From contig NZ_JAGQDF010000009.1 of NCBI RefSeq assembly GCF_018069875.1, forward strand, positions 1 through 64,000: a stretch of 64,000 nt of DNA, in the 5' to 3' direction. Under the pieces are notes generated by a model, which saw only the letters and a list, made by a program, of their open reading frames with translations, did no database searches and was not told the DNA's origin. Both the position numbers and the translations under genes were made by a program. The stretch is from Ideonella alba (lineage in GTDB: Bacteria > Pseudomonadota > Gammaproteobacteria > Burkholderiales > Burkholderiaceae_C). Positions 40,066 to 57,701 of the stretch are shown one piece after another (the first letter of the stretch is position 1; each line of letters begins with the position of its first letter).

Positions 40066-41178
40066 ATGACCGCGTCCGCCGACCCCGCCACGCCCCGCCT
40101 CGTCAGCGTCGACGCACCTGGGCGCCTGCACCTGGGCTTTCTGGATCCGTCCGCCTCGCTGGGGCGTCGTTTCGGCAGCCTGGGCCTGGTGCTGGACGAC
40201 TGGGTCACCCGGGTGGAGCTGCGCGCTGCGCCGGGCGCCACCGACCTCTTCACCGCCGACACCCCCGAGGCCCGCGCCGAACTGCCCCGCGCCGAGGCCC
40301 ATCTGGCAGCACTGAAGTTGCGCACCGGCCAGCCCGCGCCGCTGCACCTGCATCTGGCCCGGGTGCTGCCGGCGCATGCTGGCCTGGGCTCGGGCACCCA
40401 GCTGGCGCTGGCGGTGGGGCGGGCCTTCGCCCGCTGGCACCAGCTGAGCCTGTCCACCGCCACGCTGGCCCATGGCCTGGGCCGGGGCCTGCGCTCGGGC
40501 ATCGGCATCGGCGGCTTCGACCAGGGCGGTCTGCTGCTGGACGGCGGGCCGGGCGCCGATGGTCAGCCGGCGCCCGTGCTGGCGCGGGTGGCGCTGCCGC
40601 CGAACTGGCGGGTGCTGTTGGCCATCGAGCCTGGCGCGCGCGGCCTGTCAGGGGCCGAAGAACGCGCCGCGCTGGCCCGGCTGGCGCCGCTGCCGGCCGC
40701 GGCCGCGGCCGAGATCTGTCACCAGACGCTGATGCGTGTGCTGCCCGGCGCCACCCAGGGGGATTTCCTGGCCTTTGCGATGGGCGTGGGCCGGATCCAG
40801 CAGATCGTCGGCGACCACTTCGCGCCGGCGCAGGACGGCGAGGCCTACACCCGACCCGCGATCGGCCGCCTGATGCGCTGGCTCGAGGCGCATGCCCCGG
40901 CCTTCACCAGCGAGCCGGTGGGGGTGGGCCAGAGCTCCTGGGGCCCCACGTCCTTCGCCTTCGTCAGCCGGCCCGAGCATGGCCAGGCCTTGATCGCCGC
41001 GGCCCGCGCGGCGGGTGCGCTGGCCCAGGGCCTGCAGCTGGTGATGGTGCGTCCGCGCGACCATGGCGCCCTGGTCAGCGACAGCGCTGACACCGCCCAC
41101 CGTGCACCCAGCCGACCCAGCGCCGAGAGCCTGTGGCGCTGGCAACAGACCGAGCAGGCGCCCTGGCGCCTGCACTGA
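40066..41178 (+). CDS. mptG: Beta-ribofuranosylaminobenzene 5'-phosphate synthase (H4MPT biosynthesis)
   Basis: A 370-residue GHMP-kinase-superfamily protein with the glycine-rich motif LPAHAGLGSGTQLALAVG and a start VSVDAPGRLHLGFLDPSA. It matches beta-RFAP synthase, which joins p-aminobenzoate to phosphoribosyl pyrophosphate with loss of CO2, the first committed step of the arylamine side of tetrahydromethanopterin. The pABA itself could come from the pabBC fusion at the other end of the island. The ATG at 40066 is followed soon by homologous sequence; one 30 bases upstream is possible. First gene of the rightward mptG-mtdB-mch-fae run. Confidence 0.92.
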   Translation: MTASADPATPRLVSVDAPGRLHLGFLDPSASLGRRFGSLGLVLDDWVTRVELRAAPGATDLFTADTPEARAELPRAEAHLAALKLRTGQPAPLHLHLARVLPAHAGLGSGTQLALAVGRAFARWHQLSLSTATLAHGLGRGLRSGIGIGGFDQGGLLLDGGPGADGQPAPVLARVALPPNWRVLLAIEPGARGLSGAEERAALARLAPLPAAAAAEICHQTLMRVLPGATQGDFLAFAMGVGRIQQIVGDHFAPAQDGEAYTRPAIGRLMRWLEAHAPAFTSEPVGVGQSSWGPTSFAFVSRPEHGQALIAAARAAGALAQGLQLVMVRPRDHGALVSDSADTAHRAPSRPSAESLWRWQQTEQAPWRLH

Positions 41179-41223
41179 CCGCTTTCAACGACTGTCGCGG
41201 CGCTCCCACGCGCCCCTTGAGCC

Positions 41224-42126
41224 ATGGAACGTCCCTACATCCTGCACATGTTCACCCCGGGCCGCCAGATGAGCCCCTTCGATGTCAACATGGCCGCTGA
41301 TGCCGGCTACCAGGTGCTGGCGCCCTACACCGATGTCACGCTCGACGCGGTGCGCGGTCTGACCCAGGACGCAATCTTCTCGCGCAGCCCCAAGGGCCTG
41401 GCGCGCACCGCCATCTTCATCGGCGGCCGCGACGCGGTGCTGGCGGCCGACATGCTGGAGCGGGCGCAGCAGGCGATGGTGCCGCCGTTCACGGTCTCGC
41501 TGATGGCCGATCCCAGCGGCTCGTACACCACCGCCGCGGCGATGGTGGCGGCGGTCGAGGCCGAACTGGTCGCGATGGGTGCGGGCGGCCTGACGGGCCA
41601 GCGCGTGGTGGTGCTGGGCGGCACCGGCCCGGTCGGCCGCATTGCCGGCGTGATGGCGGCCATGGCGGGCGCCAACGTGGCGCTGTCCAGCCGCAACGGC
41701 ATCGACGTCGCCGAAGAGGCGGCGCAGCAGACCGGCCAGCGCTTCGGCGTCACGCTGCATGGCATCTCGGGGGGTGACCGCGACGCGGTGCGCCGCTCGA
41801 TCGCCGACGCCGATGTCATCCTGGCCACGGCCGCTGCGGGCGTGCAGGTGGTCTCGGCCGAGGACCTGACGGCGGCCACGCGGCTGAAGGTGGCCGCCGA
41901 CGTCAACGCCGTGCCGCCTGAAGGCATCGCCGGGGTGGGCGTGATGGACAAGGGCACGCCGGTGCCCGGCACCCAGGCCCGCGGCCTGGGCGCACTGGCG
42001 ATCGGCAACGTCAAGTACCAGACCCAGCAGCGCCTGCTGCGCTCGATGAACGAATCCGCCGAGCCGGTCGTGCTGGGCTTCGCCGAGGCCTTCGAGGCCG
42101 CGCGGGCCCTGCTGCGCCAGGCATGA
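41224..42126 (+). CDS. mtdB: Methylene-H4MPT dehydrogenase
   Basis: A 300-residue NAD(P)-dependent enzyme oxidising methylene-H4MPT to methenyl-H4MPT. The start ILHMFTPGRQMSPFDVNMA and the Rossmann loop VVVLGGTGPVGRIAGVMAA are typical of the MtdA/MtdB family. I call MtdB rather than MtdA because mch, fae and H4MPT synthesis genes surround it. It acts between Fae and Mch in formaldehyde oxidation. Its stop overlaps the ATP-grasp gene start (42123-42126). All length and motif features are normal. Confidence 0.94.
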   Translation: MERPYILHMFTPGRQMSPFDVNMAADAGYQVLAPYTDVTLDAVRGLTQDAIFSRSPKGLARTAIFIGGRDAVLAADMLERAQQAMVPPFTVSLMADPSGSYTTAAAMVAAVEAELVAMGAGGLTGQRVVVLGGTGPVGRIAGVMAAMAGANVALSSRNGIDVAEEAAQQTGQRFGVTLHGISGGDRDAVRRSIADADVILATAAAGVQVVSAEDLTAATRLKVAADVNAVPPEGIAGVGVMDKGTPVPGTQARGLGALAIGNVKYQTQQRLLRSMNESAEPVVLGFAEAFEAARALLRQA

Positions 42127-43292
42127 CGGTGCACGGTCCGCTGGCGCTGGCGGGCCTGTCGGTCCGGGCGGCGGCGCAGGCGGCCCGGCGCGACGGCCTG
42201 CGCGTGCTGGCGCTGGACCTGTTCGGTGACGCCGACACCTGCGAGGCGGCCGAGGCCTGGCGCCCGCTGGGCGACCCGGCGCGGCCGCAGATCGACGGCG
42301 AGCGCCTGCTGGCGCTGCTGGCGCGGTGCCGCGACGAGCTGGCCGGCTGGTGGCCCGGCAGCGGCTTCGAGGACCGCGCCGACCTGCTGGAGGCCGGCAG
42401 CGCGCTGTGCCCGCTGCTGGGCACGCCGGCCCAGGGCTGGCGCCGGCTGGCCGATCCACGGGCCTTCTTCGAACGCCTGGACGCCTGGGGCATCGCCCAC
42501 CCGGAGGTGGTGTTCCAGCGGCCCGTGCCGGCGCTGGGCTGGCTGCGCAAGCGCGGCGGCAGCCGCGGCGGCGAGCATGTGCAGCCGGCCGATGTGACGG
42601 CGGCCGAACCGGCCGACACGGCTGCGGCCGAACCGGCCGACGGCCCCTGGTACTGGCAGCGCTGGCAGGACGGCGCGACGATGTCGATGACCCTGCTGTG
42701 CGCCGCGCCCGGCCGCGCCTGTGTGCTGGGCCTGAACCGCCAGTGGCACCAGCCGCAGGCGGGCCAGCCCTTTGCCTATGGCGGCGTGCTGGGACCGGTG
42801 GGCCTGCCTGGCCGCGCGAGCAGCCTGTTGCAGGGCGTGGCCGAGCGCCTGGCCGCGGCCTTCGAGCTGCGCGGCGTGGTGGGGGTCGATTTCATCTGGC
42901 ACGAGGACAGCGCCTGGGTCCTGGAGGTCAACCCCCGCTGGCCAGCCAGTGCCGGCCTGTATGCGCCCCAGGGCGGCCTGGTGCGGGCTCACCTGCAGGC
43001 CTGCCTGCATGGCCGCCTGCCGGCGCCGGCCCAGGTGGCGGCCTGGCAGCCGCCGCGCCTGCGCGGGCTGCAACTGCTGCGTCTGGCGCATGACGCCCAG
43101 CTTGACGCCGCCACGGTGGCGCGGTGGGCGCGCCAGCCGGATGTCCATGACCGCCCGTCGGCCGCGATGCGCTTGCCGGCCGGCGCCCCTGTGTGTACCG
43201 TCAGTGCCGAGGCCGACGACGAAGCGGCGCTGCGCCGCCAACTTGACGCCCGCTGCGCCGCACTGGCCTCGACCCTGGAGACCCCCGCATGA
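42123..43292 (+). CDS. ATP-grasp protein of the H4MPT gene cluster, reaction unknown
   Basis: A 389-residue protein with an ATP-grasp-like core: FELRGVVGVDFIWHEDSAWVLEVNPRWPAS holds the metal-binding Asp/Glu/Asn set seen in carboxylate-amine ligases. It sits between mtdB and mch with ATGA overlaps at both sides, as a gene of this type does in other H4MPT-using methylotrophs, where it is thought to act in cofactor synthesis. It likely ligates an amino acid or other amine to a pterin or furan precursor, but the substrate is unknown. An Ala/Glu/Pro-rich insertion (about 160-175) contains a short direct repeat and looks like a flexible loop. Confidence 0.85.
   Translation: MTVHGPLALAGLSVRAAAQAARRDGLRVLALDLFGDADTCEAAEAWRPLGDPARPQIDGERLLALLARCRDELAGWWPGSGFEDRADLLEAGSALCPLLGTPAQGWRRLADPRAFFERLDAWGIAHPEVVFQRPVPALGWLRKRGGSRGGEHVQPADVTAAEPADTAAAEPADGPWYWQRWQDGATMSMTLLCAAPGRACVLGLNRQWHQPQAGQPFAYGGVLGPVGLPGRASSLLQGVAERLAAAFELRGVVGVDFIWHEDSAWVLEVNPRWPASAGLYAPQGGLVRAHLQACLHGRLPAPAQVAAWQPPRLRGLQLLRLAHDAQLDAATVARWARQPDVHDRPSAAMRLPAGAPVCTVSAEADDEAALRRQLDARCAALASTLETPA
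42600..42641. repeat. 18-bp direct repeat inside the ATP-grasp gene
   Basis: GCGGCCGAACCGGCCGAC occurs at 42600-42617 and again at 42624-42641, a 24-base period. It encodes AAEPAD twice in a linker. Being a multiple of three, unit changes would keep the frame. Confidence 0.8.
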
Positions 43293-44287
43293 GTTCCACG
43301 ACCAGCCACCGCGCCTGGCCCAGCCCCAACGACCTGGCCGTGCCCCTGGTGGCCCAGCTGCTGCAGGACGCCGAGCGCCTGGGCGTGTGCTGGACCCGCG
43401 ACGAGCGCGGTACCTGCATCGTGGACGCCGGCATCGACGCCCCGGGCAGCATCGCCGCGGGCCTGCTCATCGGTCGCATCTGCATGGGCGGCCTGGGCGA
43501 GGTCTCGCTGGTCACCGACGGCCGCCACGGCTGGGCCAACTGGCTGCAGGTCAGCAGCCCGCAGCCCGTGCTGGCCTGCCTGGGCAGCCAGTACGCCGGC
43601 TGGAGCCTGGCCGCCAGCAAGGAGGAGACTGGCGGCAAGAAGTTCTTCGCCCTGGGATCCGGCCCGGCACGGGCGCTGGCAGCCAAGGAGAAGCTGTTCG
43701 ACGAGCTGGCCTGGCGCGACGCCGCAGGCAGCGGCGTGCTGGTGCTGGAGGTCGATCGCGCGCCGCCGCGGGTGGTGATCGACAAGGTGCTGCGCGACAC
43801 CGGCCTGGCGCCCGAGGCGCTGACCATCGTGCTCACCCCCACCAGCAGCCGCGCCGGCACCACCCAGGTGGTGGCCCGGGTGCTGGAGGTGGCGCTGCAC
43901 AAGGCGCATGAGCTGGGGATTGCGCTGGACGACATCGTCGACGGCACCGCCAGTGCGCCGCTGCCGTCGCCCACCGCCGACGGTGCGCAGGCCATGGGCC
44001 GCACCAACGACGCCATCCTCTACGGTGGCCTGGTCACGCTGTCGGTCAACGGCGAGGTCGAGGCGGCGCGGTCGCTGGCCCAGCGCCTGCCCTCGGGCAC
44101 CTCGCGCGACTACGGCAAACCCTTCGCCGACATCTTCTCGGCCGCCGGCTACGACTTCTACAAGATCGATCCGGCGCTGTTCGCTCCGGCCGCGGTGGTG
44201 GTGCAGCACCTGCCCAGTGGCCGCAGCTTCGAGGCCGGTCGGCTGGACATGCCGGTGCTGCTGCAGGGCTGGCGCGAGGCGGCCTGA
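43289..44287 (+). CDS. mch: Methenyl-H4MPT cyclohydrolase
   Basis: A 332-residue Mch that hydrolyses methenyl-H4MPT to formyl-H4MPT. Recognisable blocks are IAAGLLIGRICMGGLGEVSL, SPQPVLACLGSQYAGWSL, GSGPARALAAKEKLF and NDAILYGGLVTLSV. It overlaps the ATP-grasp gene by 4 bases and is followed after 2 bases by a RimK-like gene. It forms the middle step between MtdB and the Fhc complex. Length is normal and no key region is missing. Confidence 0.96.
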   Translation: MSSTTSHRAWPSPNDLAVPLVAQLLQDAERLGVCWTRDERGTCIVDAGIDAPGSIAAGLLIGRICMGGLGEVSLVTDGRHGWANWLQVSSPQPVLACLGSQYAGWSLAASKEETGGKKFFALGSGPARALAAKEKLFDELAWRDAAGSGVLVLEVDRAPPRVVIDKVLRDTGLAPEALTIVLTPTSSRAGTTQVVARVLEVALHKAHELGIALDDIVDGTASAPLPSPTADGAQAMGRTNDAILYGGLVTLSVNGEVEAARSLAQRLPSGTSRDYGKPFADIFSAAGYDFYKIDPALFAPAAVVVQHLPSGRSFEAGRLDMPVLLQGWREAA

Positions 44288-44289
44288 GC

Positions 44290-45219
44290 ATGACGATGCG
44301 CGTGGCGATCATGACCGACGAGGTCGGCTGGCACACCCGCCAGCTGCAGGCGGCGCTGCGCGCACGCGGCGCCCAGGGCCGCTGCCTGGACCTGGCCGAC
44401 TGCGGCATCGACACCAGCGCCACGCACCACGGCCTGCGCCTGCCTGGCTTCGAGCGCGCGCTGCCCGAGGCGGTGATCGTGCGCGGCATCGCTGGCGGCA
44501 GCTTCGAGCAGGTCACACAGCGCCTGGGCGTGCTGCACGTGCTGCGTGAGCTGGGTGTGCCGGTCTACAACGATGCCCGTGCGATCGAGCGCACCGTGGA
44601 CAAGGCGATGACCACGCTGCTGCTGCACGCCGCCGGCCTGCCCACACCGCCCACCTGGACCTCGGAGAGCGAGGCCGTGGCGCGCCGCATCGTCGCCCGC
44701 GAGGCCGCGGCCGGCCACGCGCTGGTGCTCAAGCCGCTGTTCGGCTCGCAGGGGCGGGGTCTGGTGCGGGTGGGCCAGGTCGAGGGGAGCTTCGAGCCAC
44801 TGCCCAGCCTGGCCGGGCCGCCCTTCAACGGCCTGGCCTACCTGCAGCGCTGGGTGCCACCGCTGTCCGAGCCGGGTTTCGACTGGCGCGTGCTGGTGAT
44901 CGGTGGCCAGGCCCGCGCGGCCATGCAGCGCGTCAGCGGCCACTGGATCCACAACATCAAGCAGGGCGCGCGGCCGGTGGCGGCGGCGCTGACGCCCGAG
45001 CTGGCCGATCTGGCCGAGCGCGCCTCGGCGGCGCTGGGACTGGACTATGCCGGAGTCGACATCCTGCCCACCCGGGACGGTCTGACCGTGCTGGAGGTCA
45101 ACGGCATCGCCGCCTGGCAGGGTTTGCAGCGGGTGACCGGCTTCTCCATCGCCCAGGCGCTGGTGGACGACCTGCTGGCGCGACGCTGCGCCGATCGCAG
45201 CGCCGCGCGGCGCGCATGA
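44290..45219 (+). CDS. RimK-like ATP-grasp ligase of the H4MPT cluster
   Basis: A 309-residue ATP-grasp enzyme of the RimK/MptN type. Motifs in order: ERTVDKAMTTLLLHAAGLPTP, the ATP-binding LVLKPLFGSQGRGLVRV, DWRVLVIGGQARAAMQRVSG, and the metal site YAGVDILP, LEVNGIAAWQGLQ. In archaea MptN adds a glutamyl residue to tetrahydrosarcinapterin precursors; here a glutamate ligase for dephospho-H4MPT or for the polyglutamylated methanofuran is plausible. The starting ATG is 2 bases after the mch stop, so the two are co-translated. Exact substrate not established. Confidence 0.85.
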   Translation: MTMRVAIMTDEVGWHTRQLQAALRARGAQGRCLDLADCGIDTSATHHGLRLPGFERALPEAVIVRGIAGGSFEQVTQRLGVLHVLRELGVPVYNDARAIERTVDKAMTTLLLHAAGLPTPPTWTSESEAVARRIVAREAAAGHALVLKPLFGSQGRGLVRVGQVEGSFEPLPSLAGPPFNGLAYLQRWVPPLSEPGFDWRVLVIGGQARAAMQRVSGHWIHNIKQGARPVAAALTPELADLAERASAALGLDYAGVDILPTRDGLTVLEVNGIAAWQGLQRVTGFSIAQALVDDLLARRCADRSAARRA

Positions 45220-45268
45220 GTCCCCTCCCGCCCCGCCAGCGGGCGCCTGCCGCAGGCCGGGGCGGGCC

Positions 45269-46150
45269 ATGAGCGCCCGCATCGAGGCCGCCTGGCGCCG
45301 CGCCTGCGCCTGGGACGTGGCCGCCCGCAAGCCCGGCAACGTCAGCCATGCCAGCGACGGCCACCGCATGACGGCCGCGCAGTTCCTGGACAGCGCCGAC
45401 GCCGCGGCCGCCGCGCTGGCCCGCCCGGGCGGGTCGGTGGGCGAGGGCATCGAGGCGGCGGTCGACGCCACCTGGGCGCGGGTGGGCTGCAACACCAACC
45501 TGGGCATCGTGCTGCTGTGCGTGCCGCTGGCCCAGGCCTGGCGGCGCCTGCCCGCCGGTGCGGCCGATCACACCGCGCTGCGCCTGGCGCTGGGCGCAGT
45601 GCTGGCCGGGCTGACGCCGCAGGACAGCGCCGCGGCCTACCGCGCCATCCGCCGGGCCAATCCGGGCGGTCTGGGCCATGCCGACGACGAGGACGTGCAC
45701 CAGGAACCCACGCTGGACCTGCGCGCCGCGATGAGCCTGGCCGCTGACCGCGACCGCATTGCCCGCCAGTACCGCGACGGCTTTGCCGAACTGTTCAGCC
45801 TGGGCCTGGACGCGCTGGGCGAGGCCGACCTGGGCGTGGGTGCGCCGCAGGGTCCGCGCGAAGACGCCGCCGCCGAGGCGGTGCAGCGCGTCTTCCTGGC
45901 CTGGCTGGCCTCGGCGCCCGATGCACATATTGTCCGCAAGCACGGTGCGGCGGTGGCACAGTGTGTCATGAACGATGCCAGTCGGTGGCTGCAGCGCCCC
46001 GCCGCCGGGCGCAGTCTGGACGCCGATCCGGGCTGGCGCGCCTGGGATGAGCAGCTGAAACAGCAGGGCATCAACCCCGGCACCAGCGCCGATCTCACCG
46101 TGGCCACGCTGTTCCTGCACGGTCTGATCGACCGCCGCGGGGCACCCTAG
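45269..46150 (+). CDS. CitG/MdcB-like triphosphoribosyl-dephospho-CoA synthase homologue
   Basis: A 293-residue protein of the CitG family, which in citrate and malonate lyases attaches ribose-triphosphate to dephospho-CoA. Family motifs are WDVAARKPGNVSHASDG, VGCNTNLGIVLLCVPLA and NPGTSADLTVATLFLHGL. No lyase genes exist here. Instead it lies between the RimK-like ligase and fae, the position of an uncharacterised CitG-like gene in other methylotroph H4MPT clusters. A transfer of a phosphoribosyl-type group during H4MPT assembly is a reasonable guess. Function should be considered unknown. Confidence 0.85.
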   Translation: MSARIEAAWRRACAWDVAARKPGNVSHASDGHRMTAAQFLDSADAAAAALARPGGSVGEGIEAAVDATWARVGCNTNLGIVLLCVPLAQAWRRLPAGAADHTALRLALGAVLAGLTPQDSAAAYRAIRRANPGGLGHADDEDVHQEPTLDLRAAMSLAADRDRIARQYRDGFAELFSLGLDALGEADLGVGAPQGPREDAAAEAVQRVFLAWLASAPDAHIVRKHGAAVAQCVMNDASRWLQRPAAGRSLDADPGWRAWDEQLKQQGINPGTSADLTVATLFLHGLIDRRGAP

Positions 46151-46183
46151 GGATAGCCCGGGGCGCCCGGCGCCCCGACGTGG

Positions 46184-46202
46184 CATGGAACGTGATTCCA
46201 TG
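46184..46202. promoter_or_regulatory. Dyad CATGGAA-N5-TTCCATG upstream of fae
   Basis: Perfect 7-base arms (46184-46190 and 46196-46202) around CGTGA, 65 bases before the fae start, in the only sizeable gap of this operon. A GC-rich hairpin GGGGCGCCCGGCGCCCC lies just before it and may damp read-through from the CitG-like gene. Together they suggest that fae has its own regulated promoter. No regulator is assigned. Confidence 0.5.
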
Positions 46203-46267
46203 TTGACCAGCGCCGGCGGATGAGCCCCGGCGTCGTCAACACAGGAACAGCACAGGAGACTGACAAT

Positions 46268-46777
46268 ATGGCCAAGATCGATCGCATGCTGGTGGGCGAA
46301 TCGCTCGTGGGCGATGGCAATGAGGTGGCTCACATCGACCTCATCATCGGCCCGCGTGGCAGCGCCGCTGAAACCGCGTTCGCGAACTGCCTGACCAACA
46401 ACAAGGACGGTTTCACCTCGCTGCTGGCGGTGGTGGCCCCGAACCTGCTGTGCAAGCCGGCAACCGTGATGTTCAACAAGGTCACCATCAAGGGCGCCAA
46501 GCAGGCCGTCCAGATGTTCGGCCCGGCCCAGCGTGGCGTCGCCATGGCGGTGGCCGACTGCGTCGAGGATGGCACCATCCCCGCCGACGAAGCCGACAAC
46601 CTGTTCATCTCGGTCGGCGTCTTCATCCACTGGCTGGCCGAAGACGACAAGAAGATCCAGGACTACAACTACGCTGCGGTCAAGGAGTCGATCAAGCGCG
46701 CCGTCGCCGGCACGCCGACCGCCGCGGAAGTGGTGGCCAAGAAGGGTGGCGCGTCGCACCCGTTCGCCGCCAACTGA
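46268..46777 (+). CDS. fae: Formaldehyde-activating enzyme
   Basis: A 169-residue Fae that condenses formaldehyde with H4MPT to methylene-H4MPT. The catalytic His is present (His22 in [15 protein letters not shown], matching His17 of the Methylobacterium enzyme), and [19 protein letters not shown] and [14 protein letters not shown] follow as expected. The ATG at 46268 has an AGGAGA ribosome-binding site; the ORF is open 16 codons further up, but without such a site. Last gene of its run, followed by a strong terminator. Fae is usually very abundant, which suits the good ribosome-binding site and separate promoter signals. Confidence 0.97.
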
Positions 46778-46903: not shown

Positions 46904-46928
46904 GCGCCCTGCGCGCTCCTTGCCGATG

Positions 46929-49694: not shown

Positions 49695-50307
49695 GGGCCG
49701 CGAGCGCATCGACGCCGTCGACGAGGCGGCCGGCCTGGAGGACGCGCCCAGGCGCTCGCGCTTTGCCTGGTGCGTGACCGGCTCGGGCCATTTCCTGGAA
49801 GAGTCGATGGCGCTGGCCGCGCGGCTGCCGCAGTGCGACCTGTTCCTGTCGGCCGCGGCCGAAGAGGTACTGCCCATCTACGGCTACCACCTGGACGCGC
49901 TGCGCCAGCGCCACAAGCTGTTCCGCGACAAGACCGCCAGCGCGGTGCCGGTGGGCGCGCTCTACACCGACGTCTACCACACGGTGATCGTCGCCCCGGC
50001 CACCAGCAACACCGTGGCCAAGTGCGCCTACGGCTTCAGCGACACGCTGCCCACCAACATGTTCGCCCAGGCCGGCAAGCTGGGCATTCCCGGCATCGTG
50101 TTTGCTTGCGATACCGAGCCGGTGGTGGTCACCAAGGCGCCCCATGATTGGGTCATGCTGCGGCCGCGGCGCGTCGAGCTGGAGAATGTCGAGCGCCTGC
50201 GCGGCATCGACCATGCGCAGGTGGTCTGCTCGCCCGATGAACTGGAACAGGCCCTGACCCGGCGACTGGCTGAACTGCACCTCGCGTGGAACACATCGTC
50301 TTCCTGA
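49627..50307 (+). CDS. dmrB: DmrB/AfpA-type flavoprotein, dihydromethanopterin reductase candidate
   Basis: A flavodoxin-like flavoprotein of the archaeoflavoprotein/DmrB group. The core starts at [15 protein letters not shown] and continues with [32 protein letters not shown], the FMN- and Ser/Thr-rich block of this family. DmrB proteins reduce dihydromethanopterin to its tetrahydro form, the last step of H4MPT synthesis. The start is a problem: the first in-frame ATG is 49627, inside the regulator gene by 68 bases, giving 226 residues with a 45-residue tail that does not look conserved. A GTG within VTGSG would cut the fold. Overlaps the next gene by 22 bases. Confidence 0.8.
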
Positions 50308-51689
50308 CCGGCCACCTGGCCGAGGCCTCGCTGCAGCGGGTGCTGCAGTCCTTGAACAGCACCGCGGGCGAGGCGCCCTTCACCTGGGAAACGCGTGACG
50401 TGGGCGTGCAGGTGGCGGCGCTGATGACCGCCGACATGATCCGCCGCCGTGTGCCCGCGCCGCTGCCCGGCGCCGACCGCATCCTGGTGCCAGGCCGCTG
50501 CCGCGGCGATGTCGAGGGCTTGTCGGCCCACTTCGGCGTGCCGGTGCAGCGCGGCCCCGATGAGTTGAAGGACCTGCCGCAGCACTTCAAGCGAGCGGCC
50601 CAGGCGGTGGATCTGTCGAAGCACCGCACCCGCATCTTTGCCGAGATCACCGACGCGCCGCGCCTGAGCGTGGCCGAGATCGTCGAGCGCGCCCGCGCCC
50701 TGGTGGCCGACGGCGCCGACGTGATCGACCTGGGCGGCCTGCCGGCCACGCCTTTCGGGCACCTGGCCGAGTCGGTGCAGGCGCTGAAGGCCGAGGGCTG
50801 GCAGGTCAGTGTCGACAGCCAGGACACCGACGAGCTGCTCACCGGCGGCCGCGCCGGTGCCGACTACCTGCTGAGCCTGAAGGCCGACACCCTGTGGGTG
50901 GCCGACGAAGTGGCGTCCACGCCCATCCTGATCCCCCGCGAGCCGGCCGACGAGGCCAGCCTGGACGCCGCGATCGCCGGCATGCGCGCGCGCGGCCGGC
51001 CCTTCCTGGCCGACCCCATCCTCGACCCCATCCCCTACGGCTTCACTGCGTCCATCGTGCGCTACCACGCGCTGCGCCAGCGCCACCCGGAGGTGGCCAT
51101 CATGATGGGCACCGGCAACCTGAGCGAGCTCACCGAGGCCGACACCAGCGGTATGCACGCGCTGCTGCTGGGCATCTGCGCCGAGCTGGACGTGGCCGCG
51201 GTGCTGACCACCCAGGTCAGCCTGCATGCGCGACGCGCGGTGCGCGAGGTGGATGCCGCTCGGCGCATCATGCACGCCGCCGCCACGCTGCCGGCGCTGC
51301 CCAAGGGCCTGAGCCCGCTGCTGGCCACGGTGCACGAGCGCCACCCCTGGCCCGACACCCCCGAAGAGATCGCCGCCACGGCGGCCCAGGTGCGCGACCC
51401 GAACTTCCGCATCCAGGTCAGCCAGCGCGGCCTGCACGTCTACAACCGCGACGGCCTGCGCGAGTCCACCGAGGCCTTCGCGCTGTGGCCGCAGCTGGGT
51501 CTGCAAGGCGATGGCGGCCATGCCTTCTACATGGGCGTGGAGCTGGCCCGCGCCGAGATCGCCTTCCAGCTGGGCAAGCGCTATGTGCAGGACCGGCCGC
51601 TGGACTGGGGCGTGGCCTGGCAGCCCACGATCGACAATGAGCAATGCGCCCCTGGCCCGACCCGGGTGAAGCGCGACACCGATGCCTGA
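50286..51689 (+). CDS. DUF6513 / dihydropteroate-synthase-like protein of H4MPT synthesis
   Basis: A 467-residue protein. The N-terminal third ([20 protein letters not shown]) is the DUF6513-type domain, and the rest resembles dihydropteroate synthase (DGADVIDLGGLPATPF, PFLADPILDPIPYGFTASIVRY, MMGTGNLSELTEADTSGMHA). This architecture is found in methanogens and H4MPT methylotrophs and is proposed to join the hydroxymethylpterin to the ribofuranosyl-aminobenzene product of MptG, taking the place of FolP. Overlaps dmrB upstream and the DUF447 gene downstream by a few bases. Reaction assigned by analogy. Confidence 0.86.
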   Translation: MEHIVFLTGHLAEASLQRVLQSLNSTAGEAPFTWETRDVGVQVAALMTADMIRRRVPAPLPGADRILVPGRCRGDVEGLSAHFGVPVQRGPDELKDLPQHFKRAAQAVDLSKHRTRIFAEITDAPRLSVAEIVERARALVADGADVIDLGGLPATPFGHLAESVQALKAEGWQVSVDSQDTDELLTGGRAGADYLLSLKADTLWVADEVASTPILIPREPADEASLDAAIAGMRARGRPFLADPILDPIPYGFTASIVRYHALRQRHPEVAIMMGTGNLSELTEADTSGMHALLLGICAELDVAAVLTTQVSLHARRAVREVDAARRIMHAAATLPALPKGLSPLLATVHERHPWPDTPEEIAATAAQVRDPNFRIQVSQRGLHVYNRDGLRESTEAFALWPQLGLQGDGGHAFYMGVELARAEIAFQLGKRYVQDRPLDWGVAWQPTIDNEQCAPGPTRVKRDTDA

Positions 51690-52257
51690 ACTGATCTACG
51701 AGTGCGTCGTCAGCACCACCGACGCCACCGGCCGCCCGCACCTCGCGCCCATGGGCGTGCGCTACCGCGCCGATGACCGCGTGCTGCTGATGCCCTTCAA
51801 GCCCTCCACCACGCTGGACAACATCCTTGCCACCGGCGTGGCCGGCCTGAACGTGCTGACCGACACGCGCGTCTTTGCCGGCTGCGTCACCGGCCGGCGC
51901 GAATGGCCGCTGCTGCCGATGCAGCGCCTTGGCGGCCTGCGCCTGAGCGCGGCGCTGCGCCACCAGGAGCTGCAGCTCGAGTCGGTCAGCGACGACCCGC
52001 AGCGCCCCGTGCTGACTCTGCACGCGGTCCACAGCGTGGACCACGCGCCTTTCCTGGGCCTGAACCGCGCGCAGGCGGCGGTGCTGGAAGGCGCGGTGCT
52101 GGTCAGCCGCCTGCACCTGCTGCCGGCCGACAAGATCGACACCGAGATGGCCTACCTGCAGATCGCGATCGACAAGACCGCTGCGCCGGCCGAGCTGGAG
52201 GCCTGGGGCTGGTTGCGTGAGGCGATTGCCGCGCACCGCGCCGGGAGCCTGGCATGA
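51682..52257 (+). CDS. DUF447-family protein of the H4MPT cluster
   Basis: A 191-residue protein of the DUF447 family, shared by methanogens and H4MPT-using bacteria. Its N-terminus (LIYECVVSTTDATGRPHLAPMGV) resembles the split-barrel flavin-binding fold of pyridoxamine oxidase-like proteins, so an FMN-dependent step is possible. It overlaps both neighbours (8 bases with the DUF6513 gene, 4 with mfnB). The function is not known; its constant company suggests a role in making methanopterin or methanofuran. Confidence 0.82.
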   Translation: MPELIYECVVSTTDATGRPHLAPMGVRYRADDRVLLMPFKPSTTLDNILATGVAGLNVLTDTRVFAGCVTGRREWPLLPMQRLGGLRLSAALRHQELQLESVSDDPQRPVLTLHAVHSVDHAPFLGLNRAQAAVLEGAVLVSRLHLLPADKIDTEMAYLQIAIDKTAAPAELEAWGWLREAIAAHRAGSLA

Positions 52258-52955
52258 CCCGGGTGCTGGTCAGCGTGCGCGATGCCGTCGAGGCGCAGGT
52301 GGCCGCTGCCGCCGGCGTGCCCTTCATCGACCTGAAGGAGCCCTCGCGCGGTGCGCTGGGCGGGCTGGACCCGGCGGTGATCGCGCGCATCGTGGCCCAG
52401 CTGCGCACCTGTGCGCCCCAGGCGGTGGTCAGCGCCACGATCGGCGACTGGCCCGCCGAGGCGGCTGACGAGGTGGCAGCCCGTTGCCGCGCCGTGGCCG
52501 CCACCGGCGTGGACCACGTCAAGGCCGGCGTGGTGCCGGGTGGGGCGGCGCTGGCGCTGCTGCGCCAGCTCGATGCGCTGCGCCGCACCGAGGGCCTGCC
52601 GATCGTGCCGGTGCTGGTGGCCGACGATGGCGTGCCCTGGGCGCTGGTGGACGCGGCGCTGGCCGCCGGCTTCGAGCTGCTGATGCTGGACACCGTGGAC
52701 AAGCGCGGCGGCAGCCTGCTGCAGCGCTGCGCGCCGGCCGATCTGCAGCGCTTTGTCGCTGCCAGCCGGGCGGTGCGCGCGCGTCCTGGCCTGGCCGGCG
52801 CACTGCGCGCCGAGGACTGGCCGCAGCTGGCGGCACTGGCGCCGGATTTCGCCGGTTTCCGCTCGGCGGTGTGCGCCGGCGACCGCGCCGGCACGCTCAG
52901 CGCCGAGCGCCTGTCGGCACTGCTTCGGATGTCCGCTGGGGCCGCTCAGGCCTGA
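52254..52955 (+). CDS. mfnB: (5-formylfuran-3-yl)methyl phosphate synthase (methanofuran)
   Basis: A 233-residue TIM-barrel protein matching MfnB (DUF556), which builds the furan ring of methanofuran from two glyceraldehyde 3-phosphates. The active-site segments are FIDLKEPSRGALGG (Lys28, Asp26) and MLDTVDKRGG (Lys150), corresponding to the two catalytic lysines reported for the methanogen enzyme. It is the last gene of the regulator-dmrB-DUF6513-DUF447 run and its end overlaps the convergent mfnE gene by 10 bases. The identity is strong; the bacterial methanofuran analogue may differ in its side chain. Confidence 0.88.
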   Translation: MTRVLVSVRDAVEAQVAAAAGVPFIDLKEPSRGALGGLDPAVIARIVAQLRTCAPQAVVSATIGDWPAEAADEVAARCRAVAATGVDHVKAGVVPGGAALALLRQLDALRRTEGLPIVPVLVADDGVPWALVDAALAAGFELLMLDTVDKRGGSLLQRCAPADLQRFVAASRAVRARPGLAGALRAEDWPQLAALAPDFAGFRSAVCAGDRAGTLSAERLSALLRMSAGAAQA

Positions 52956-53527
52956 CCCAGCAGCAACCCGCGCGCCTCGGGCCACTGGCCCACGTTGAGC
53001 ACATCGATCGGGAAGGCCACCGGCCCGAGCCGGTCCATGAAGCCCTCGTCGATCACCTCGCGGCGGTGCAGGCTGTCCAGGTCCTCGCCGTCGATGTCGC
53101 AGCTCTTGACCAGCAGCAGGCGCTCGGCATTCAGGCGCAGCGCCAGGTCCAGCGCGATGCTGTCGCCGGTCACGGCCCAGTTGGTGTTCGCGTCAGGCAC
53201 CTGGCGCACCAGCTCCAGTGGCGACCACACCACGGTGCGCGCCTGACGCAGCGTGCGCACGATGTCGGCCTCGCGCTCCACCAGTTGCAGCGCGGGCTGC
53301 AGGCCGCACATCAGCCAGGCGTTCTGGGCCATCGCCAGCACCGCCATGTTGTGCGCCGGCAGGTCGTCGAACTGCCAATGCGCCTGCAGCCGGCGCACTT
53401 CCTCGGCCAGGCCACCGCCACCGGGCACGATGATGACCCGGCCGCCCCCCAGCAGCGCCAGGCCATCCAGCCAGTCGCGCAGGCCGGCGCTTGCGTTGAG
53501 ACTGCCTCCGAGCTTGACCACCCACAT
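52946..53527 (-). CDS. mfnE: Amino-acid-kinase-fold protein, MfnE-like furan phosphate kinase
   Basis: A 193-residue amino acid kinase-fold protein. VVKLGGSL at the very start and VIIVPGGGGLAEEVRRL are the phosphate-binding loops; VTGDSIALDLALRLNAERLLLVKSCDIDG is the typical mid block. In methanogens MfnE phosphorylates aminomethylfuran-methyl phosphate to its diphosphate, and with mfnB, mfnF and mfnD alongside that role is likely here. The frame is open upstream in the mfnF shadow, but the kinase motif sits at residues 3-10 from the ATG at 53527, which fixes the start. Third gene of the leftward mfnD-mfnF-mfnE run. Confidence 0.85.
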   Translation of the reverse strand: MWVVKLGGSLNASAGLRDWLDGLALLGGGRVIIVPGGGGLAEEVRRLQAHWQFDDLPAHNMAVLAMAQNAWLMCGLQPALQLVEREADIVRTLRQARTVVWSPLELVRQVPDANTNWAVTGDSIALDLALRLNAERLLLVKSCDIDGEDLDSLHRREVIDEGFMDRLGPVAFPIDVLNVGQWPEARGLLLGQA

Positions 53528-53538
53528 GGTGCTTCTCC

Positions 53539-54600
53539 TCAGGCGCCGGCCAGCAGGGCGGCCACGGCCACGCTGGGCGCGCAGACCGTGGCCCAGCCGG
53601 CCAGCGGCCCGGCCCGCGCCACGTCGCGCCCGTGATCGATCAGCGCGATGCCCACCGCGGCGTCGCCATACACCCGTCGCATCAGCGCGGCGGCCAGGAA
53701 GGCGCCGGCACCTGCCACCACCACGCGCTCGGGGCGCTGTGGCTGGACCTGTTGCCAGGCCTCGGCCAGACGGTTCAACTGGGCCTCGCGCCACTGGCGG
53801 GCCAGCTGCCGCCACTCCTCGGCGGTGGCGTCGCGCCGGTCGCAGCCCACCATGCGGGCCAGCCGCGCCTGGCTGCCGGCCTCGTCCTTCGGGCCGTTGT
53901 CGGCGCTGGGCTGCTGGTCGTGTGCGGGGTCGAGTTCGCCGGTCAGGCGGTAGACATCGGCGGTGGTGGCGAACCATTCGTTCATCACGCCCAGGCGCTG
54001 GCCCTGCAGCTGCACATGCGCGGCCAGCGCGCACAGCGGCGTGCGAACCACGCCCTGGTAGACCAGTTCGCCACTCGCCAGGCGGTCGCGGTCGCTGCGG
54101 CTGCGGGTGTCCGGGCGGCCATCGGCCAGGCGGATGATGTCGGTGGTGGTGCTGCCGATGTCCAGCAGCACGCCGTGGCCGATGATGGCCGCCGCGTGCT
54201 GCGCCGTGGCCAGCCAGTTGGCCGAGGCCACGCGCTGCCACTGCGCCGCGGCCTGCGCGCTGTCCAGCCACAGCACGGCCGGCCCGGGCGCCAGCCGGGG
54301 CCCCGCATAGACCTGCACCGGCGCGTCCAGGCCGGCGCACATCGCAGCGGCCAGCCGGGCCACGCCATCGGCGCGGTCGTCGAACAGATCGGTCATCTCG
54401 GCGGTCATCGTCAGCGCGTGGCGCGCCCGCTGCAGGTCGGGCCAGCGCGCCCGGGCCAGCGCCATGGCGGCCTCCAACTGCGGCAGGCCCTGCCACACCG
54501 GGCAGGGCCACTGCGCCACATCCTGCACCTGGGCGTCGGCCCAGCGGCAGGCCTTGAGGTGGGCGCCACCCAGGTCCCAGCCGATCACCAGCTCAGACAT
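53539..54600 (-). CDS. mfnF: H4MPT-linked C1 pathway protein, MfnF-like (hydantoinase-A fold)
   Basis: A 353-residue actin/hydantoinase-fold protein. VIGWDLGGAHLKACRW at the start and GHGVLLDIGSTTTDIIRLADG midway are the two nucleotide-binding loops; VVVAGAGAFLAAALMRRVYG closes it. Homologues are annotated as H4MPT-linked C1 transfer pathway proteins; in methanogens MfnF couples the furan diphosphate to tyramine-glutamate in methanofuran synthesis. The ATG at 54600 overlaps the end of mfnD by 8 bases. mfnE follows after 11 bases. Confidence 0.86.
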   Translation of the reverse strand: MSELVIGWDLGGAHLKACRWADAQVQDVAQWPCPVWQGLPQLEAAMALARARWPDLQRARHALTMTAEMTDLFDDRADGVARLAAAMCAGLDAPVQVYAGPRLAPGPAVLWLDSAQAAAQWQRVASANWLATAQHAAAIIGHGVLLDIGSTTTDIIRLADGRPDTRSRSDRDRLASGELVYQGVVRTPLCALAAHVQLQGQRLGVMNEWFATTADVYRLTGELDPAHDQQPSADNGPKDEAGSQARLARMVGCDRRDATAEEWRQLARQWREAQLNRLAEAWQQVQPQRPERVVVAGAGAFLAAALMRRVYGDAAVGIALIDHGRDVARAGPLAGWATVCAPSVAVAALLAGA

Positions 54601-55549
54601 GGGCCTGCTCCGGCAGGGCGGGCGACCACCACGGCGCCAGCAGCTCGGCCGCCAGCGGCCGGCCCAGCCGCTCGGCCAGGCCGATGAAGGCACAGGTCAG
54701 GCGCGCATTGACCTCGACGCACACCGGGCCCAGCTGCGGATGCCAGACCAGGTCCACGCCCACGTAGCCGCGCAGGCCGGGAATGGCCGCCCACACCGAT
54801 TGCGCCACCGCCTCCAGCCGGCGCCAGCGCGGGTCGCCCGGCGCCACCGCGGCCGCCTCGACACCCAGGAAGCGCAGTTCGCCGTCGTCGGGCGTGTGCA
54901 ACTGCTGGCGATTCACGGCCAGCAGCCGGCAGCCGTCGGGCCGGCAGGCCATGGACAGGCTCAGCGGCTCGCCGGTGATCCAGGGCTGGCACAGCACGGC
55001 TTCGCCGCGGGCGCGCCGCGCCGCCAGCATGCGCAGTGCCTGGGCCTTGCCGGACAGCCGCCAGCAGCCCTCGGCCCCTGCGCCCTGTTCGGGCTTGACG
55101 ACCCAGTGCGCGGGCTGCACCTCGGCGCCGATGTTGTCCGGCGTGCGCAGCCCGGCGCCGGCCAGCGCGGCCAGTGTGCGCGGCTTGTGGCTGCTCACCT
55201 CCAGCGCTGCGGCGCTGCTGCCCACCCAGCGCTGCGCGCCCACCAGGCGCTTGCAGCGCAGCAGCCAGTTGTCGGACTCAGGGGCGATCACCCAGACCAG
55301 CTCGTGCGTCACCGCCAGGCGCCGCACGAAGGCCTCGGCCGCCTCGCCGGCATGCGCCCGCACCCCGCGGCCCTGATGGGCCGGGGCGGCGGGGCTGTCG
55401 GCCACGCTCAGCGTCAGGCCGGGCAGATCAGCCAGGGCCCGCGCCAGCGCGTCGCGCATGGCCACGCCCTGGTCCAGCAGGCGCGACTCGGCCGGGCCCA
55501 GCGGCAGCGCGCCGGCGCTGAGCAGTTCGTACACCACAATGCGGGTCAT
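54593..55549 (-). CDS. mfnD: ATP-grasp ligase, MfnD-like (tyramine-glutamate ligase candidate)
   Basis: A 318-residue ATP-grasp protein. Visible motifs: WVVKPEQGAGAEGCWRL (ATP-binding loop), LCQPWITGEPLSLSM, and YVGVDLVWH with VCVEVNARLTCAFIGLAERLG (metal ligands Asp, Glu, Asn). In methanogens MfnD joins tyramine to glutamate for methanofuran; the methylotroph cofactor has a polyglutamate chain, so this or the RimK-like protein may extend it. First gene of the mfnD-mfnF-mfnE operon. Only 21 bases separate its start from the divergent HisA-like gene, so its promoter must lie inside that gene. Confidence 0.83.
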   Translation of the reverse strand: MTRIVVYELLSAGALPLGPAESRLLDQGVAMRDALARALADLPGLTLSVADSPAAPAHQGRGVRAHAGEAAEAFVRRLAVTHELVWVIAPESDNWLLRCKRLVGAQRWVGSSAAALEVSSHKPRTLAALAGAGLRTPDNIGAEVQPAHWVVKPEQGAGAEGCWRLSGKAQALRMLAARRARGEAVLCQPWITGEPLSLSMACRPDGCRLLAVNRQQLHTPDDGELRFLGVEAAAVAPGDPRWRRLEAVAQSVWAAIPGLRGYVGVDLVWHPQLGPVCVEVNARLTCAFIGLAERLGRPLAAELLAPWWSPALPEQAHV

Positions 55550-55570: not shown

Positions 55571-56314
55571 ATGGAACTGATCCCGGTGCTGGACCTGCGT
55601 GCGGGCCAGGTGGTGCATGCCCGGCGGGGCGAGCGGGGGCGGTACGCGCCGATCGAGTCGGCGCTGTGCCCGGGCGCCGATCCGCTGGCCCTGGCGCAGG
55701 CGCTGGTGGACCTGACGGGGACCCGCACGCTGTACCTGGCCGACCTGGACGGCGTGCTGGACGGCCGCCCGCAGGCCGCGCTGCTGCGCCGTCTGGTGCA
55801 GGCCTGGCCGCAGTTGCGGTGGTGGATCGATGCCGGCTGGCAGCGCCGCGAGGACGCCTGGCGCCTGCGCGACGCGCTGGGGTCGGCGGGCGACGCCGTG
55901 GTGCCGGTGTACGGCACCGAGAGCCTGGCCGACCGCGCGGCACTGGAGGCGCTGCAGGATGACCCGCGCGCCGTGCTGTCGCTGGACCGCCGGGCGTCCC
56001 GCCCAATGGACCCCGCCGGCCTGTGGGACTGCCCGCAGCTGTGGCTGCCCACCACCATCGTCATGACGCTGGAGCGGGTGGGCAGCGGTGCCGGGCCTGA
56101 CCTGCAGACCTTGCCGGCGCTGCGCCGCCAGGCGCCGCAGGTGACACGCTGGGTGGGCTCCGGCGGCGTGCGCCACCCGGCCGACCTGGCGGCCGGCGCT
56201 GCGGCCGGGGCCGACGCCTGGCTGGTGGCCAGCGCCTTGCACACCGGCGGCTGGCCGGCAGGGCGGGTGTCGGGAAAGGAGCAGGCAACGGGCACGGCGG
56301 GGCGGCATTCATGA
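55571..56314 (+). CDS. HisA-like TIM-barrel protein of the H4MPT/methanofuran cluster
   Basis: A 247-residue protein related to HisA, the ProFAR isomerase of histidine synthesis. It keeps Asp8 (IPVLDLRAGQVVHA) and Asp139 (VLSLDRRAS), matching the two catalytic aspartates of HisA, and the phosphate loop GSGGVRHPADL. The loop after strand 1 (RRGERGRYAPIES) differs from true HisA. No his genes are near. The position between methanofuran genes and fhc, and similar genes in other C1 clusters, argue for a cofactor step, perhaps an Amadori-type isomerisation of a ribosyl intermediate. Reaction unknown. Confidence 0.8.
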   Translation: MELIPVLDLRAGQVVHARRGERGRYAPIESALCPGADPLALAQALVDLTGTRTLYLADLDGVLDGRPQAALLRRLVQAWPQLRWWIDAGWQRREDAWRLRDALGSAGDAVVPVYGTESLADRAALEALQDDPRAVLSLDRRASRPMDPAGLWDCPQLWLPTTIVMTLERVGSGAGPDLQTLPALRRQAPQVTRWVGSGGVRHPADLAAGAAAGADAWLVASALHTGGWPAGRVSGKEQATGTAGRHS

Positions 56315-56501: not shown

Positions 56502-57701
56502 GTGATTGCGGTGCACGGGGCCATGCCTTCCCTTGAAACGGCCATGCCCTCGGCGGCATGGACCTGTCCCTTCTGCCCCCTGATGTGCGAGGCCGAGCCC
56601 GGCACTTCGCTCGCCTGTCCCCGACTGGACGCCCGCAGCGCCGCGCTGCCCGTGGTGACGCCCCTGCCTGATGATGTGCTGGACCAGCGCCTGGTCCAGG
56701 CTGTGGCCTGGCTGCGGGCCAGCCGCCAGCCGGTGTTCGGCGGCCTGGGCACCGACGTGGCCGGCGCCCGGGCGCTGCAGGCCCTGGCCGACCCATGCGG
56801 CGCGGTGGTCGACGGTGGCGTGGCCATGGCCCAGCCGCTGCGCGCGCAGCAGGACCGCGGCAGCTTCAGCGTCACGCTGGCCGAGGCCCGCGAACGCGCC
56901 GACCTGATCGTGCTGGTGGGCTCCTGGCCGATGCAGCGCGCACCGCGGCTGCGCGAGCGCCTGAGCGGCGGGCCCTTCGGCGAGCCCGCCTGGGTGGCGC
57001 TGGGCGCACCCCAGGCCGGGGCCGTAGATGGCATCGAGCGCATCGAGGCGCCCGACCTGTTCCGGGCGCTGAGCACCCTGGCGGCGCTGCTGGACCAGCG
57101 CCGCCTGCCCGCTGGCGTGCCGCAGGCCTGGCGCACCCTGGCCACTCGCCTGGCCGCCGCACGCTACGCCGTGCTGGTGTTCGAACCGGGGCCGCTGGGC
57201 CCTCAGGCCGGGCTGCTGATCGAGCGCATCAACACCCTGGTCACGCTGCTCAACCGCCAAGGCCGCGCCGCGTCCTTGTCCATCGGCGCCGGTCAGGGCC
57301 TGGGCACGGTGCAGCAGGTGCTGGCCTGGCGCACCGGCCTGCCGCTGCAAAGCCGCCGCGGGCCGCTGGGCCGCGAGCATGACCCGCTGACCCTGGACGG
57401 CCTGCGCCAGGTCCACGAGGGCAGCGCCGACCTGCTGCTGTGGGTGTCGGCCTATGGCGAGGCCATGCCGCCTTCGCGCCCCGGGTTGCGACGCATCGTG
57501 CTGGGCGCCGCCGACCAGGTCCATTTGTCTTTGCAGCCAGACACCCTTTTCTTCCCGGTGGGCACGCCGGGACTGGACCATGGCGGCCACCTGCACCGCA
57601 CCGACGGCGTGGTGGTGCTGCCCCTGTTCGCGTCGCGTCGCAGCGCGGCCCCTGCGGTGGCGACGGTGCTGACCGCCTTGCTGGAGAGGCTGATGTCATG
57701 A
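56502..57701 (+). CDS. fhcB: Fhc complex subunit B (formylmethanofuran dehydrogenase B homologue)
   Basis: A 399-residue relative of the molybdopterin-type subunit of formylmethanofuran dehydrogenase. The N-terminus WTCPFCPLMCEAE keeps a Cys cluster, and HLHRTDGVVVLPLF near the end matches FmdB homologues. Bacterial FhcB is known to lack a working redox cofactor site and is structural within the formyltransferase/hydrolase complex. It starts with GTG at 56502; an ATG at 56523 would also serve. A 187-base upstream gap should carry the fhc promoter. Its stop overlaps the fhcA start (ATGA). Confidence 0.9.
   Translation: MIAVHGAMPSLETAMPSAAWTCPFCPLMCEAEPGTSLACPRLDARSAALPVVTPLPDDVLDQRLVQAVAWLRASRQPVFGGLGTDVAGARALQALADPCGAVVDGGVAMAQPLRAQQDRGSFSVTLAEARERADLIVLVGSWPMQRAPRLRERLSGGPFGEPAWVALGAPQAGAVDGIERIEAPDLFRALSTLAALLDQRRLPAGVPQAWRTLATRLAAARYAVLVFEPGPLGPQAGLLIERINTLVTLLNRQGRAASLSIGAGQGLGTVQQVLAWRTGLPLQSRRGPLGREHDPLTLDGLRQVHEGSADLLLWVSAYGEAMPPSRPGLRRIVLGAADQVHLSLQPDTLFFPVGTPGLDHGGHLHRTDGVVVLPLFASRRSAAPAVATVLTALLERLMS

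Follow-up and report, generated by a model that had tools for sequence, protein, structure and literature searches.

A 64,000-nucleotide stretch of the Ideonella alba genome (contig NZ_JAGQDF010000009.1, positions 1 to 64,000; hereafter the window) carries the genes mtdB-orfY-mch-orf5-orf7-fae, a run that is the known bacterial cluster for tetrahydromethanopterin (H4MPT) and methylofuran (MYFR). H4MPT is the one-carbon carrier of methanogens and of the majority of methylotrophs. We lean towards a reading in which OrfY and Orf5 build the polyglutamate of methylofuran, while the CitG-like Orf7 and its subfamily act on the pterin and Orf7, as we infer, adds an α-ribosyl group to the ribitol of an H4MPT precursor. 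The cluster as such is known and two of its genes belong to the other cofactor, but Orf7 represents a real gap and is a good candidate enzyme for ribosylation in H4MPT synthesis. The original prediction described an ATP-grasp, a RimK-like and a CitG-like open reading frame (ORF) woven between mtdB, mch and fae, and both the coordinates and the family profiles agree with this description. That all three genes are unassigned holds for orf7, whereas orfY and orf5 have been assigned since 2021, as myfA and myfB (PMC8141765).

The product of orf7 belongs to the CitG family, with a score well over the gathering score (PF01874; 232.3 vs 27 bits) across positions 3–284 of 284. Its scores against the equivalogs for CitG and MdcB are, in contrast, far under the respective cut-offs (TIGR03125, 25.9 vs 272.3; TIGR03132, 23.6 vs 282.35). 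A profile search of the host genome (5.5 Mb in 36 contigs, 99.8% complete) gave no match to PF06857, the CitD/MdcC-type carrier, and the earlier remark that there is "no lyase here" is thus upheld for the genome as far as the carrier is concerned. CitG and MptG were searched for in 299 Pseudomonadota genomes, and Mch and the PF06857 carrier in the 45 of these with CitG or MptG. The CitG family was present in 42 of the 299 genomes (51 copies), and among the 45, Mch was found in 15 and the carrier in 32 (36 copies). With linkage taken as a distance within 10 kb, start to start, 36 CitG copies are near a CitD/MdcC-type carrier and 15 are near mch, with none left over; 14 of the mch-linked copies lie at 1.7–2.1 kb from mch and one at 9 kb. 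An mch-linked CitG accompanies MptG in every one of the 15 Mch genomes. Of the 299 genomes, 18 gave an MptG match (17 above the cut-off), and three of these 18 are without CitG (G015, G027 and G159). These three were considered as counter-examples and rejected, since none has an Mch match. In G015 and G159, blastp matched no other window gene within the 19.5 kb that surround the MptG match, and the match in G027 is weak, partial and located on a 3.1 kb contig.

A search of a genome collection with an Archaeoglobus query gave at least 489 confirmed loci, of which the best 80 were used; this sample is rich in archaea, and the neighbour counts given below describe it. Seventy of the 80 loci are labelled archaeal, one is titled Altiarchaeota, and nine are bacterial (Planctomycetota, Acidobacteriota, Methylomirabilota, Chloroflexota, Gemmatimonadota and Pseudomonadota). 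The alignment comprised 127 sequences, i.e., 32 carrier-linked copies (4 of the 36 were left out), 15 mch-linked copies and 80 others, and 76 of the aligned rows were included in a tree built by a quick method without bootstrap and rooted at the midpoint. In this tree, 16 carrier-linked rows lie behind one branch (Shimodaira–Hasegawa-like approximate likelihood ratio test 100), while the 15 mch-linked rows, including that of the window, are found opposite together with 45 others. On the Orf7 side, the bacterial proteins, 24 in number, come together in a single supported group (99) amid archaeal ones. Residues K21, N75, G79, D218, P270, A274 and D275 are conserved at 97–100% in all three groups of the alignment, and N24, P86, D119 and N269 at 99–100% in the mch-linked and other groups; the carrier-linked group has L, L, a gap and S at the latter four positions.

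An AlphaFold model of Orf7 built from 32 sequences (mean predicted local distance difference test, pLDDT, 91.3) has the same fold as 3h9p from Archaeoglobus fulgidus (Z 23.3; 2.6 Å over 222 residues; 28% identity), the sole solved relative found by sequence. The designation of 3h9p, "putative triphosphoribosyl-dephospho-CoA synthase", derives from the family, and its function is putative; its closest relative among the loci listed (79% identical) is from an Archaeoglobus metagenome-assembled genome (L062), with a DUF447 gene adjoining. In a Foldseek search with the Orf7 model, no match had an E value under 0.001, and the 50 matches listed did not include 3h9p. Similarities of the model to DhaL/FakA (Z up to 3.8) and to the ADP-ribosyl hydrolase ARH3 (Z up to 3.2) were discarded as below noise level. 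Judged by its sequence, Orf7 is a member of a distinct CitG subfamily common to bacteria and archaea. It has the Pfam family and the core residues in common with CitG and MdcB, but differs in the unreached equivalog cut-offs, the missing carrier match, the side of the tree and the residues that are fixed.

Both MptG, the enzyme of the first H4MPT side-chain step, and MfnB, which forms the furan ring, were followed alongside CitG. Among 14 named control genomes, CitG was found in Escherichia coli, Methanocaldococcus jannaschii, Haloferax volcanii, Sulfolobus acidocaldarius and Methanosarcina acetivorans, MptG in exactly the four CitG-bearing archaea, and Mch in three of these (not S. acidocaldarius). 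MfnB was present only in the two methanogens, so that CitG and MptG are found without an MfnB match in H. volcanii and S. acidocaldarius. With MptG, CitG and Mch all matched in H. volcanii, it may be that haloarchaea produce a pterin of the methanopterin type but no methanofuran. Two archaeal sets were also searched, the phylum to which a Methanolobus genome belongs (G320; 127 genomes), which we take to be Halobacteriota, and the phylum of a Thermoproteota-titled metagenome-assembled genome (G323; 19 genomes). In the former, CitG is present in 121 genomes, MptG in 123 (116 above the curated cut-off) and MfnB in 100; CitG and MptG occur together in 120, CitG only in one, MptG only in three and neither in three (Fisher p 2e-4, shared ancestry ignored), whereas the distribution of CitG against that of MfnB gave p 0.11. 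In the 27 genomes of this set without MfnB, seven of which were arrived at by subtraction, CitG and MptG agree without exception (24 with both, three with neither), and 22 of the 24 MptG matches are above the cut-off. In the 19-genome phylum, CitG is present in five genomes, three of them with full-length MptG, and 14 have neither in full (p 0.01). Finally, among 49 genomes that carry the subfamily, which come from 50 of the best 80 loci, MptG is full or nearly full-length in 45, matched at all in 47 and above the cut-off in 41. These profiles argue that the CitG subfamily is tied to the pterin, not to the furan, and its predicted assignment to the pterin cofactor, H4MPT, is well supported.

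The commonest neighbour of archaeal CitG is DUF447, which is present in 46 of the 70 archaeal loci and typically overlaps the CitG end by 4 bases. It is directly downstream (start within 200 bases) in at least 34 of the 68 archaeal loci with room, a count that runs low because predicted start codons were placed too far upstream in several haloarchaeal loci. Other recurrent neighbours in the 70 loci are AfpA-type (16), dihydropteroate-synthase-like (DHPS-like; 9) and MptG-type genes (8), as well as one further family (10); some clusters consisting of similarly sized antisense ORFs were taken to be shadows and left out. In G374, a genome without MfnB, CitG, DUF447 and an AfpA-type gene are consecutive and DHPS-like frames follow 0.9 kb beyond, and CitG is paired with DUF447 in the haloarchaeal loci L120, L131, L134, L138 and L140. 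The DUF447 protein of the window is Orf20. Its AlphaFold model (pLDDT 94.3) gave Z 25.0 to a DUF447 structure from Rhodopirellula, and Z 21.6 and 20.6 to DUF447 structures with flavin mononucleotide (FMN) from Methanosarcina and Archaeoglobus, respectively, the next matches being flavin reductases. The model points to an FMN-type split-barrel protein, and Orf20 is a candidate for the ring-opening reductase of H4MPT synthesis. DUF447 proteins have also been termed "likely" cannula-related in one paper, a line that led nowhere.

CitG forms an α-ribosyl bond to a ribose hydroxyl, with ATP as donor and release of adenine, and CitX transfers the product to a serine of the carrier with loss of pyrophosphate. 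Dephospho-H4MPT retains the ribitol and the α-linked ribose, and a ribosyltransferase is therefore required. This compound is H4MPT without the phosphate and the hydroxyglutarate (PMC8141765). In the proposed pathway, MptG would make β-ribofuranosylaminobenzene 5'-phosphate (β-RFA-P), which the DHPS-like Orf19 would then couple to the pterin. A reductase, one candidate for which is the FMN-type Orf20/DUF447, would open the ribose to ribitol, and Orf7 would move ribosyl-5-phosphate or -triphosphate from phosphoribosyl pyrophosphate (PRPP) or ATP onto the 5-hydroxyl of the ribitol, giving the α-ribosidic bond. This would be CitG-like chemistry with a new acceptor, and in archaea the later formation of a phosphodiester to α-hydroxyglutarate would parallel the CitX transfer. 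The suggestion in the original prediction that CitG-type chemistry operates on a methanopterin precursor is supported for Orf7 with respect to the pathway, on genome profiles, phylogeny and neighbours, with the reaction itself as we infer it here; it does not extend to the ATP-grasp and RimK-like proteins. A wider proposal, that the CitG-derived α-ribosyltransferase Orf7 and the FMN-type reductase Orf20/DUF447 supply two missing consecutive steps of the H4MPT side chain, common to archaea and bacteria, we regard as possible rather than probable.

The functions of OrfY and Orf5 can be taken from relatives. Hemmann et al. 2021 (PMC8141765) report that full-length methylofuran is lost upon deletion of orfY in Methylobacillus flagellatus or of orf5 in Methylorubrum extorquens, the orfY mutant accumulating MYFR-Glu0 and MYFR-Glu1 and the orf5 mutant MYFR-Glu2. 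Polyglutamate was synthesized by Orf5 in vitro, and the authors gave OrfY the new name MyfA and Orf5 the name MyfB. The same paper describes the H4MPT of M. extorquens as being without hydroxyglutarate for extension and notes steps of methylofuran synthesis that are still unexplained (Orf17, branching); the term orf7 is absent from its main text. In the window, an ATP-grasp ORF lies between mtdB and mch, and a RimK/MptN-like ATP-grasp ORF directly follows mch and precedes orf7, i.e., the positions and families are the same as those of MyfA and MyfB. By position and family, OrfY and Orf5 match MyfA and MyfB, and would, as in the relatives, add glutamates onto methylofuran and not onto H4MPT. 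Orf5 is above the cut-off of TIGR00768 (rimK_fam), but reaches only 188.8 against a cut-off of 350 for the equivalog of the H4MPT:glutamate ligase MptN (NF040720). OrfY has 37% identity to the MfnD-like protein of the window over 98 residues, and no direct match to the MfnD model. The view that the ATP-grasp and RimK-like proteins perform H4MPT steps is contradicted by the deletions in relatives, which affect methylofuran (PMC8141765). The window also encodes a second ATP-grasp protein that is more MfnD-like, Orf1, the gene of which has been equated with mfnD (PMC5020050); its presence suggests that methylofuran in this organism contains tyramine.

Several observations weigh against the proposed roles of Orf7 and Orf20. 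In 24 of the 70 archaeal loci, a methanogenesis-marker-9/dihydrouridine-synthase-like gene is directly upstream of CitG, on the same strand in all. This family was identified from one member (L076:5397-6689); its 24 loci are mostly from methanogens, along with two haloarchaea, and 22 of them also contain DUF447. The marker-9 protein may have a part in H4MPT synthesis, and as a second possible redox partner it means that DUF447 is not the sole candidate reductase, which lowers the probability of the joint Orf7 and Orf20 proposal. The window protein has an Asp at position 16, where Glu occurs at 100%, 80% and 99% in the three groups, and K224 and N269 of Orf7 are unlike the carrier-linked group. 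The ribose donor in early cell-extract work was reportedly PRPP and not ATP, so that the donor of CitG may not carry over to Orf7. In the 127-genome set, G431, G441 and G451 have MptG and MfnB without CitG, and G444 has CitG and MfnB without MptG. All four discordant genomes thus have MfnB; that of G451 is split across two contig ends, a sign of broken assembly, and in G444 CitG adjoins DUF447. Four of the 49 subfamily carriers are without a full-length MptG match. In the 19-genome phylum, two of the five CitG carriers (G349 and G363) have no MptG match and seven CitG-less genomes have weak partial ones; in G363, CitG is near orf5 and an mch that runs into the contig end. The co-occurrence counts by genome take no account of shared ancestry. 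Lastly, bacterial Orf7 is placed between furan and pterin genes, and position alone is therefore no arbiter.

The profile and neighbour data are compatible with any pterin-side step, and Orf7 might, for example, be a hydrolase or a transferase handling the 5-phosphate, in which ribosyl transfer to ribitol has been lost. The changes in the subfamily-specific residues would fit such a role, but CitG-family core residues are retained, and to our knowledge the α-ribosyl bond is the sole known pterin-side step that matches the chemistry of this family; we consider the alternative unlikely. Orf7 could also take part in methylofuran synthesis, like MyfA and MyfB, which would agree with the location of orf7 directly after orf5 in 15 of 15 loci and with the steps of that pathway that are still unexplained (PMC8141765). 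However, of the 27 genomes in the 127-genome set that have no MfnB, 24 keep the CitG family, as do H. volcanii and S. acidocaldarius, and DUF447, AfpA-type and DHPS-like genes are among the neighbours of the family in archaea. Nor do we know of any ribose in methylofuran. A methylofuran enzyme was set aside on the basis of the MfnB-less genomes and appears quite improbable.

Public records name Orf7 homologues after ordinary CitG, including those of Azoarcus and Aquabacterium, and the high PF01874 score agrees with that name, by which Orf7 would make triphosphoribosyl-dephospho-CoA for an unrecognised carrier. With equivalog scores far under the cut-offs, no CitD/MdcC-type carrier match in the genome and a place on the other side of the tree from the carrier-linked copies, this explanation was rejected and is very hard to sustain. 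Least credible is that all three genes encode new H4MPT steps. Older annotations tie Orf5 and OrfY to H4MPT (PMC5023235), and MptN is the best NCBIfam model for Orf5, but its cut-off is missed by a wide gap, and deletion combined with liquid chromatography–mass spectrometry in M. flagellatus and M. extorquens places both proteins in methylofuran synthesis, the H4MPT of M. extorquens having no hydroxyglutarate (PMC8141765). Ribosylation of an H4MPT precursor by Orf7, with OrfY and Orf5 acting on methylofuran, is the reading that we retain.

The genes mptG, mtdB, orfY, mch, orf5, orf7 and fae occupy positions 40066-46777, all on the plus strand (Table 1), and from mtdB to fae the intergenic distances are -4, -4, 2, 49 and 69 bases. 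Loci were read in 15 Mch-bearing Pseudomonadota genomes, the window included: orf5 and orf7 are adjacent and on the same strand in all 15, and in 12 of them an OrfY-type gene was found to separate mtdB from mch. As the grouping is conserved in relatives, the arrangement is not due to chance. Downstream are genes for a FolB-like protein, a sigma-54 regulator, an AfpA/DmrX-type protein, DUF6513, DUF447, MfnB, MfnE-, MfnF- and MfnD-type proteins, a HisA-like protein, FhcBADC and a second Fae-like protein. FhcB is under the cut-off (TIGR03129; 83.3 vs 327.8), and fhcC was called from gene order and blastp to relatives. The second fae-like gene, after fhc at 61146-61679, is divergent (TIGR03126; 142.6 bits vs 247.8 for the first copy). 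A hairpin with a T run resembling a terminator is located at 46872-46896 (+), about 100 bases past fae. A scan of 39900-47700 returned no promoter-like sites and two terminator-like sites vs 1.5 in shuffled sequences, i.e., not above the shuffled expectation.

Table 1. Features of the H4MPT/methylofuran gene region of the window, with predicted products and supporting matches (scores in bits unless stated).
Gene	Predicted product or role	Position	Strand	Basis
mptG	β-RFAP synthase, first H4MPT side-chain step	40066..41178	+	TIGR00144 141.4 vs cut-off 113.5; ATG at 40066 assigned here
mtdB	Methylene-H4MPT dehydrogenase	41224..42126	+	PF09176 Mpt_N 124.7; gene order as in Methyloversatilis
orfY (myfA)	ATP-grasp, methylofuran second-glutamate ligase	42123..43292	+	389 residues; PF02655 ATP-grasp_3 45.3 vs cut-off 23.2; function from relative
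mch	Methenyl-H4MPT cyclohydrolase	43289..44287	+	TIGR03120 351.2 vs cut-off 228.8; PF02289 383.6
orf5 (myfB)	RimK/MptN-like methylofuran polyglutamate ligase	44290..45219	+	309 residues; PF08443 RimK 68.9 vs cut-off 21; function from relative
orf7	CitG-like, proposed H4MPT α-ribosyltransferase	45269..46150	+	293 residues; PF01874 232.3 vs cut-off 27
fae	Formaldehyde-activating enzyme	46220..46777	+	TIGR03126 247.8; PF08714 232
	Sigma-54-dependent regulator inside one-carbon cluster	47664-49694		
	AfpA/DmrX-type flavoprotein	49699..50307 (approximate start)	+	TIGR02700 89.9 and TIGR02699 82.6, both under cut-off
orf19	DHPS-like (DUF6513)	50286..51689	+	TIGR00284 164.7 (under cut-off); PF20123 104.6
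orf20	DUF447, predicted FMN-type split barrel	51682..52257	+	PF04289/PF20766; AlphaFold model
orf22	MfnB-type, furan ring formation	52254..52955	+	PF04476 183.8 vs cut-off 22.4
orf21	MfnE-type kinase	52946..53533	-	NF040622 59.1, under cut-off
orf9	MfnF-type	53539..54612	-	TIGR03123 304.1 vs cut-off 244.1; MfnF equivalog NF040623 under cut-off
orf1 (mfnD-type)	ATP-grasp, second MfnD-like paralogue	54593..55549	-	NF040722 MfnD E 2.5e-12, under cut-off
orf17	HisA-like, required for methylofuran in a relative	55571..56314	+	PF00977; Hemmann et al. 2021 (PMC8141765)
fhcB-fhcA-fhcD-fhcC	Formyltransferase/hydrolase complex	56502..61100	+	A (TIGR03121) and D (TIGR03119) above cut-off

The same order is known from other bacteria. 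MtdB, OrfY, Mch, Orf5 and Orf7 are encoded by consecutive locus tags in Methyloversatilis universalis, as in the window (PMC5023235), and mch-orf5-orf7-fae is likewise found in Methylosinus trichosporium, which differs in that no orfY is reported there (PMC3615186). Plasmids of Azoarcus sp. KH32C (L150) and Aquabacterium olei (L151) carry the same gene families, and their order is unchanged. In the former, the gene in the place of orf5 is labelled "hypothetical protein" and the place of the sigma-54 regulator is kept, whereas in the latter there is no fae after orf7 and no sigma-54 gene at that place. Much of the cluster is thus plasmid-borne in both organisms. In the window, mptG, the folB-like gene, the sigma-54 regulator, orf19-22, orf1, orf9, orf17 and fhc are all within the same 24 kb.

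In 2011, the enzymes past RFAP synthase were described as largely unknown, with "at least nine steps" and an "estimated 7 unknown proteins". We found no paper linking CitG or triphosphoribosyl-dephospho-CoA with methanopterin in the openly licensed literature, which does not by itself show novelty. If the joint Orf7 and Orf20 proposal is true, Haloarchaea and Sulfolobus, which have MptG and a CitG homologue, would make pterins with a ribosyl-ribitol tail, the cofactor enzymes of citrate lyase and malonate decarboxylase would form with the methanopterin enzymes two branches of one family that makes α-ribosyl bonds, and the archaeal hydroxyglutarate step would mirror that of CitX. Naming a gene for the ribosylation would open this gap in the H4MPT pathway to tests in laboratory strains that already exist, correct a database name and join two cofactor pathways via one chemistry.

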